NCBI RefSeq assembly: GCF_900188375.1
Contig: NZ_FZOO01000002.1
Coordinates: forward strand, 124,001 to 188,000
Reading direction: 5' to 3'
Source: Geodermatophilus pulveris
GTDB taxonomy: Bacteria; Actinomycetota; Actinomycetes; Mycobacteriales; Geodermatophilaceae
DNA length: 64,000 nt
The translations under genes were made by a program, and so were the position numbers. Shown piece by piece: positions 4,723-8,427 of the stretch. The notes under the pieces are model-generated. The model was not told the origin of the DNA and did not search any database. It was given only the letters and a program-made list of their open reading frames with translations. Position 1 is the first letter of the stretch. Every line of letters begins with the position of its first letter.

Positions 4723-5973
4723 GTGGGCCGGGTGCCCCTCCTGCCCGCGCCCCCCTCCCCCGCCGACGGCGCGACGCCCGCCGACACCGCCGCGTGGGTG
4801 TCCGCCCACCTCGGGGACCTCACCCTGGAGGGCCCGGACGGCGTCGCGCCCGGTGCGTTCCGCGGCGGGCAGTCGGCGGCCGACGCGGCGCTGGCCGCGC
4901 TGGACGTCACCGGCTACGCCCGCGACCGCAGCACGGTGCTGCCCGTGCGGCGGCGCGGTGCGAGCCGGGTGTCGCCGTACGTGCGGCACGGCCTGCTGCC
5001 GCTGCCGCGGGTGTGGGACGCCGTGGCCGGCGCCCCGCCGCGCGACCGCGCCAAGTACCGCGACGAGCTGCTCTGGCAGGAGTACGCGCGGCACCTGTAC
5101 GCGCGGGTCGGGCGTGGCCTGCGCGACCACCTGCGCTTCGACCAGCCACCCGCGGCGCGCTGGGACGACGAGCCGTGGCCGGAGCGGATGAACTGCATGG
5201 CGACCGTGGTGGAGGAGCTGCACCGCGACGGGTGGCTGGTCAACCAGACGCGCATGTGGCTGGCCTCGCAGTGGGCGGTGCGGGCCGGGGCGGACTGGCG
5301 CGACGGCGAGGCGGAGACCTATCGGCACCTGCTGGACGGGTCGCGGGCGGCCAACGGGCTGGGCTGGCAGTGGACGGTGGGCACCGGCAGCGGCAAGCCC
5401 TACGGGTTCAGCCGGTGGCAGGTGGAGAAGCGGGCGCCGGAGCTGTGCGCCGGGTGCGCGCTGCGCCGGGCGTGCCCGATCGAGCAGTGGCCGGAGGCCT
5501 CCCCCGGCCGGCGGGTGGACGGGCCCGAGCTCGGCCGGGGCCCGGTGCCCGGCGGGCCGCCGGCGGCCGAGGGCGCCGGGGCGGGCGAGTGGGTGTGGCT
5601 GACCGCGGAGTCCCTCGGCGACGAGGACCCGGCGCTGGCCGCCGACGCGACGCGCCCGGCGGTGTTCGTGTTCGACGAGCCGCTCCTGGCGCGGCTGCGG
5701 CTGTCGGGCAAGCGGCTGGTGTTCCTCGCCGAGACGCTGGGCGAGCTGGCCGCGCACCGGCCGGTGGAGGTGCGGCGCGGCCCGGTGACCGGTGAGCTGG
5801 CCGGCCGGCGGCTGGCCGCCACGTGGGCGCCGGTGCCCGGCTGGGGCCGGCGGGCCGCGGGACTGGACGTCGCCGAGGTGCACCCGTGGCCGTGGCTGGT
5901 GCGGCCGGGCACGACGTCGGTGAATTCGTTCAGCGCCTGGCGGCGGGACGCCGGCCGCGCCGTGCCCCGCTGA
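4723..5973 (+). CDS. Cryptochrome/photolyase-like flavoprotein with swapped domain order
   Basis: This 416-residue protein contains both photolyase domains in reverse order. Residues about 45-260 match the FAD-binding helical domain, which is normally C-terminal: GASRVSPYVRHGLL, ELLWQEYARHLY, WLVNQTRMWLASQW and the LGWQW segment. It ends with a cysteine group C242-x2-C245-x5-C251. After a Gly/Pro-rich linker (260-287), residues 288-405 match the antenna-binding alpha/beta domain that is normally N-terminal: VWLTAESLGDEDPALAAD, AVFVFDEPLLARL, RLVFLAETLGEL and a final WLVRPG...SFSAW. I infer a permuted member that may or may not repair DNA. A GTG at 4732 is an alternative start. Confidence 0.8.
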   Translation: MGRVPLLPAPPSPADGATPADTAAWVSAHLGDLTLEGPDGVAPGAFRGGQSAADAALAALDVTGYARDRSTVLPVRRRGASRVSPYVRHGLLPLPRVWDAVAGAPPRDRAKYRDELLWQEYARHLYARVGRGLRDHLRFDQPPAARWDDEPWPERMNCMATVVEELHRDGWLVNQTRMWLASQWAVRAGADWRDGEAETYRHLLDGSRAANGLGWQWTVGTGSGKPYGFSRWQVEKRAPELCAGCALRRACPIEQWPEASPGRRVDGPELGRGPVPGGPPAAEGAGAGEWVWLTAESLGDEDPALAADATRPAVFVFDEPLLARLRLSGKRLVFLAETLGELAAHRPVEVRRGPVTGELAGRRLAATWAPVPGWGRRAAGLDVAEVHPWPWLVRPGTTSVNSFSAWRRDAGRAVPR

Positions 5974-7805: not shown

Positions 7806-8427
7806 TCACGACCCTACCGGCGGGTGCCCGTCCGGGCGCTCGGGAGCCGGACCGACGCACGTCTGCCGGATCCGGGCCAGGAGCTGGCGGTCCCGGTGGG
7901 CGTCGACGTGGAGCGCGGCCGCGTACAGCAGGCCCGGCTCGTCGCGGAACAGCCCCAGGCCCTGGTTGCACCGCTGGCACAGCAACTGGCGCGTCGCCCC
8001 GGTCGCGTGGTCGTGGTCCAGGTGCTGCGCCGGGTCCCCGCAGATGGCACAGCGGCCGCCCTGGGCCACGTGCATGTCAAGGACCTGCTTCTTGATCAGC
8101 TGGTGTCCACGGCGGAAGTAGTACTCGCTGTTGGCGGCGTTGTGACACGACGTGCAGCGGCTCCCGAAGCCGGACGCCGTGCGGCTGCTCCGCATGTAGG
8201 CGTCGTGCGCGACCGGCTGCCGGCACGACGGGCACCAGCGGAAACCTCGGGTACCCACGAGTGATCGCGGATCTTCTCGCCCATCGCTCCTCGCGATACC
8301 AGGCGTTGTTGCGGGACCGGTTGCACGCGAGGCAGTAGAACGAGAGCCCGTCCTTCAGCGTGCGGTTCTGGCCGAACTCCGACGCCGGCTTCGACTCCTC
8401 GCACGAGGGGCACCGCTCTATGATCAC
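7806..8427 (-). pseudogene. Endonuclease VII-like (HNH/His-Me) protein split by a +1 frameshift
   Basis: Two overlapping frames together encode one recognisable protein. The first (from GTG 8427) begins IIERCPSCEESKPASEFGQN and has a CxxC...CLAC zinc knuckle. The second, ending at 7806, has CPSCRQPV...CTSC, then ICGDPAQHLDHDHATG and LLCQRCNQGLGLF, the recombination endonuclease VII signature. The 622-base span is one base too long. Removing a G from the GGG run at about 8262-8264 joins ITRG to TRGFRWCPSC without loss. It lies between pup and prcB. A sequencing error would restore an intact protein of about 206 residues. Confidence 0.75.

Follow-up and report, generated by a model that had tools for sequence, protein, structure and literature searches.

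Photolyases in which the two domains stand in inverted order were published between 2020 and 2022 as NewPHL (2020), SPL (2021) and Phr4/5 with Phr6 (2022), and the kind of protein described here is therefore already known. Phr6 and the split Phr4/Phr5 are cyanobacterial, often encoded by two open reading frames (ORFs), and have the flavin adenine dinucleotide (FAD) domain first and the DNA-photolyase domain second; their authors predict them to be (6-4) enzymes (PMC9426592). SPL proteins (Xu et al., 2021) are described, in the passages of PMC9649867 and PMC9178010 that deal with them, as having a class I/III-like FAD domain, an iron-sulfur (Fe-S) cluster and cyclobutane pyrimidine dimer (CPD) activity but no alpha/beta domain, and hence as ancestral. 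An inverted domain topology is ascribed to "NewPHLs or SPLs" in the relevant passage of PMC13274461, which cites Emmerich et al. (2020), and what these sources and PMC9426592 say of NewPHL places it in alphaproteobacteria and Prochlorococcus. The gene examined here lies at positions 4723 to 5973 (plus strand) of a 64,000-nucleotide stretch, the window, of contig NZ_FZOO01000002.1 from Geodermatophilus pulveris. Its product belongs to the photolyase/cryptochrome superfamily and is inverted (circularly permuted). What may be new is the evidence that SPL-like proteins do have their "missing" domain, in a displaced position. Annotation pipelines name such proteins merely "FAD-binding domain-containing".

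Inverted order of the two photolyase domains

The ORF starts with GTG and yields a product of 416 amino acids; orthologues are best matched by an in-frame GTG at 4732, leaving the start uncertain by three codons. The FAD-binding catalytic domain is N-terminal (residues ~47 to 260; 4861 to 5502), as the sequence-only reading had proposed, and the domain search of this half returned Pfam FAD_binding_7 above cut-off at residues 163 to 224 (E 5.8e-8). Residues ~48 to 227 align by phmmer with solved class I photolyases from E. coli (1dnp) and Thermus (1iqr), and hhalign comparison of the family N-terminus with the canonical C-terminal half, using diverse alignments, gave P=5.6e-33. A linker defined by the alignments (residues 252 to 289; 5476 to 5589) takes the place of the helices found at the C-terminus of canonical class I enzymes and leads to a shortened alpha/beta (antenna/Rossmann) domain (residues ~290 to 410; 5590 to 5952).

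The same reading had taken this C-terminal half for the antenna domain, and profile comparison bears this out. Each half matches the opposite half of canonical enzymes, the family C-terminus aligning with canonical N-terminal domains at P=4.5e-9; a first hhalign run with low-diversity alignments had given P=7e-5 over 48 columns, and the result improved after addition of relatives from Deinococcus and of varied canonical enzymes. Controls in the wrong order gave 0.48 (family C-terminus against the canonical FAD half) and 0.13. The Deinococcus relatives alone matched the canonical antenna domain at P=2.9e-13 over 131 columns, reaching the end of that domain. A family hidden Markov model (HMM) matched canonical photolyases twice and in swapped order, the C-terminal matches being individually weak. 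The AlphaFold2 model of the full protein is confident (pLDDT 94.3, pTM 0.93), and the C-terminal domain folds as Rossmann-like both in it and when modelled in isolation (pLDDT 89.5). Foldseek searches with the full model cover mainly the FAD half, as Foldseek alignment is sequential; with the isolated domain, the main high-probability solved matches were class II photolyase N-domains (up to 0.99, TMq ~0.6), followed by Usp. Alignment, hhalign and AlphaFold2 therefore agree on a FAD domain followed by the second domain within one chain, and the two domains and their order are established computationally. The order is the same in 86 of 86 aligned members and in every fused relative, which excludes the assembly error that had been raised as a way for the proposal to fail.

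Some results count against an antenna origin of the C-terminal half. Residues 277 to 416 searched alone gave no Pfam or NCBIfam match and no meaningful match to PDB sequences, a genome scan with PF00875 found only the cell's ordinary photolyase and did not score this half, and the Foldseek E-values of the isolated domain are weak (best photolyase 0.019, with an unrelated top-ranked match). Judged by such single-sequence searches, the absence of a photolyase alpha/beta match, which the sequence-only reading had named as refuting it, seems borne out, but the profile and structure comparisons reverse this. The empty family searches and the Usp structures among the Foldseek matches would suit an unrelated Rossmann/HUP domain, for example a Usp-like one, fused to the FAD domain with no permutation. 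This explanation is strongly disfavoured and very improbable, as the profiles match canonical antenna domains specifically (4.5e-9, and 2.9e-13 for the Deinococcus relatives) compared with Usp, a fold look-alike used as control (0.11 and 0.045, respectively). Moreover, Pfam DNA_photolyase matches the C-termini of two Deinococcus relatives (E 7e-4 and 1e-3) and a stand-alone Deinococcus ORF (E 2.3e-4), all just below the curated cut-off, and is the sole recurrent Pfam family among actinobacterial C-termini, at sub-threshold scores (10 of 48).

Iron-sulfur site and probable substrate

A C-x2-C-x5-C group at the end of the FAD domain had been noticed from the sequence and suspected of holding a metal or Fe-S cluster. 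The group is real, consisting of Cys242, Cys245 and Cys251 (C-x2-C-x5-C-P; 5446 to 5475), but is not the complete site, as a fourth invariant cysteine, Cys158 (5194 to 5196), belongs to it. Exactly four cysteine columns are conserved in 86 of 86 sequences, with a median of four cysteines per protein, and in an unconstrained MAFFT alignment they fall on the four cysteines of FeS-BCP relatives (sequences from related genomes), Cys158 on Cys1 and the other three on the C-x2-C...CP motif. In the FeS-BCP, or prokaryotic (6-4), photolyases such as PhrB these cysteines ligate a [4Fe-4S] cluster and are separated by 86-89, 2 and 12-15 residues (PMC3204975), compared with 83, 2 and 5 here. Cys2-x2-Cys3 and the C-P at Cys4 are thus shared with FeS-BCP, whereas the shorter Cys3-Cys4 gap, the inverted order and lesion residues that are not of the (6-4) type set the present protein apart. 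The resemblance to Phr4 extends to spacing: by published positions, C158/C242/C245/C251 correspond to C169/C254/C257/C263, and, against published numbers only, the spacing is 84/3/6 compared with 85/3/6 in RS9916 Phr4. The register of the four invariant cysteines with the FeS-BCP ligands supports the earlier suspicion, and the protein probably carries an Fe-S cluster with these residues as its predicted ligands.

Residues E115, W118, N174, M178 and W217 are those of class I enzymes at E. coli E274, W277, N341, M345 and W384, which we take to be the lesion contacts of class I photolyases; the corresponding residues of FeS-BCP relatives are Q, W, H, L and Q. The tryptophan equivalents of the electron-transfer residues W382 and W359 are also retained, in contrast to the Met and Pro of FeS-BCP. 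Because the lesion contacts are class I-like and the electron-transfer tryptophans are kept, CPD repair is favoured over (6-4) repair; the CPD-type character of the lesion residues and the invariance of the four cysteines are direct computational observations. Most FAD-contacting residues likewise resemble class I CPD photolyases, which differ from the family in their canonical order, full antenna domain, extra C-terminal helices and lack of Fe-S cysteines. From sequence we therefore judge it highly probable that the gene encodes a CPD photolyase that has inverted domains and an Fe-S cluster. In such an enzyme the N-terminal domain would hold FAD and bind the lesion, its end would be capped by a [4Fe-4S] cluster on C158, C242, C245 and C251, and the displaced alpha/beta domain would pack onto the FAD domain and close the flavin pocket. 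Blue-light-driven electron transfer from FADH- would then repair most likely CPDs, perhaps mainly in single-stranded DNA, and the enzyme would supplement the cell's ordinary class I photolyase.

This assignment meets opposition from two sides: several canonical residues are changed (T234 to A80, R278 to Q119, R342 to Q175 and D374 to S207, the first of each pair in E. coli numbering), and the authors of the 2022 mBio study, who found UV-C protection, predict that the inverted form with Fe-S is a (6-4) enzyme (PMC9426592). Their argument draws on the cysteines and on the UV-C phenotypes of phr4/phr5, and the register of the four cysteines with FeS-BCP would likewise fit the same inverted Fe-S architecture acting on the (6-4) photoproduct. 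We consider this substrate unlikely, since the residues at the five CPD lesion contacts are all those of class I and four of them differ from FeS-BCP, including N174 in place of His, and since UV-C also produces CPDs; PMC9649867, moreover, describes SPL as a CPD photolyase that contains Fe-S. A role as a cryptochrome-like light sensor or regulator rather than a repair enzyme seems less probable again. It would be consistent with a solitary gene lacking conserved partners, with the substitutions at R278, R342 and D374 and with a patchy distribution, but the lesion-contact and electron-transfer residues are retained and CPD repair has been reported for other inverted relatives.

Phylogeny and origin of the inverted order

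A tree of FAD domains was built from 45 sequences and 244 columns (LG+G4; support given as SH-aLRT/UFBoot) and is unrooted, FeS-BCP being used for display only. The actinobacterial permuted proteins form a clade (100/100), FeS-BCP form a separate one (100/100), and the actinobacterial and Deinococcus permuted proteins group with NewPHL-like proteins on one side of a split (84.3/96) that separates them from class I and FeS-BCP. The Deinococcus permuted proteins stand beside NewPHL (86.3/96). NewPHL shares the inverted topology but has no Fe-S cysteines and bears a divergent C-terminal "Z-domain", so that the present protein is not a NewPHL in the strict sense; the C-terminal domain of NewPHL-like proteins, represented by few sequences, matched neither of the antenna profiles in sequence. 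Since the Deinococcus relatives group with NewPHL yet keep the antenna domain, the Z-domain is probably a decayed antenna domain, and the most economical interpretation is that the ancestor shared by the inverted clade already possessed the antenna domain, which then eroded in NewPHL. In two Asticcacaulis loci (L198:1749-3855 and L211:498-2604), an FAD/NAD(P)-binding oxidoreductase gene lies upstream of the NewPHL-like gene and shares ~11 bp with it, which suggests a co-translated flavoprotein pair.

It is disputed which photolyase is the oldest, and one of the published arguments starts from the absence of the alpha/beta domain in SPLs. The present protein agrees with the SPL description in having no N-terminal alpha/beta domain, a class I/III-like FAD domain and Fe-S cysteines, but it does possess the domain, at its C-terminus; the SPL description, as far as it is relayed in the sources cited above, covers the N-terminal domain only. 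A large, clean family with the domain present but moved is a direct test of that argument, and hundreds of natural swapped-domain enzymes are offered for study of the roles of domain order and of the Fe-S cluster. We lean, with some reserve, towards a history in which inverted photolyases are not relics predating the antenna domain: their ancestor would have had both domains and the Fe-S site, the antenna domain would have moved to the C-terminus once, and it would have been retained by Actinobacteria and Deinococcus and have eroded to the Z-domain in NewPHL. If so, the proposal that SPL or NewPHL, as forms lacking or simplifying the domain, are ancestors of the superfamily would fail. A rather doubtful alternative, compatible with the functional assignment to CPD repair, is that two separate ancestral genes were fused twice in opposite orders, with no permutation. 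Marine Synechococcus have the split phr4/phr5 (PMC9426592), and in Deinococcus sp. QL22 the FAD and alpha/beta ORFs overlap by four bases at the domain border, as a two-gene origin might leave them, but the split QL22 gene groups with fused relatives (weak support), so that the split looks secondary. The QL22 gene lies on a plasmid (L201:1312-2603), and its second ORF, annotated as a hypothetical protein, matches DNA_photolyase.

Distribution and genomic context

Full-length relatives were found in 12 of 99 Geodermatophilaceae genomes, the 11 other than G. pulveris at 63-87% identity and with the same order; the nearest is that of Geodermatophilus nigrescens (87%). Family genomes with a full-length relative also hold another photolyase match. 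Order-wide and phylum-wide searches yielded further relatives, and a GTDB scan identified 463 stretches that encode them, the best 80 of which include Geodermatophilus, Modestobacter, Rhodococcus, Nocardioides, Williamsia, Pseudonocardia, Actinomycetospora, Patulibacter and Conexibacter. Inverted photolyases are thus widespread in Actinobacteria. Rhodococcus is rich in the family (loci L089-L099), and the cloned SPL member reportedly came from Rhodococcus fascians. More distant relatives (~33%) are carried by Deinococcus plasmids, and no full-length relative was found in phages and none in viral contigs. In one family member (L003:1501-2757) a conserved Trp codon close to the end is replaced by TAG (HP*PWL), which may reflect a recent pseudogene or a sequencing error.

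The gene does sit inside the proteasome locus between pafA and prcA, as first noted, and is on the opposite strand. Among Geodermatophilus genomes with a readable interval, 3 of 23, including its own, have the gene at this site with a gap of ~1.35 kb; the others have a gap of 117-584 bp and no gene remnant. Modestobacter and Goekera share the site. Proteasome genes are near 4 of the 80 GTDB loci and near none of the other 76, and the neighbours differ by lineage: no neighbourhood gene sought across the 80 loci was common to more than 12, and those found were confined to single lineages. A functional link to the proteasome was accordingly rejected, and the location is regarded as incidental. 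In a Nocardioidaceae metagenome-assembled genome (L124:6001-7236), the gene occurs in the same proteasome cluster but in another interval, between dop and arc; the two placements are probably a coincidence.

A scan for promoters and terminators found nothing. At four Rhodococcus/Rhodococcoides loci (L095, L097, L105 and L106) a divergent ORF, radical-SAM-like by eye, abuts the photolyase gene upstream. Elsewhere in the window (7806 to 8427, minus strand), small CxxC/HNH-like endonuclease-type ORFs lie between prcB and the next proteasome genes, and related ORFs occupy the same place at three further loci (L086-L088).
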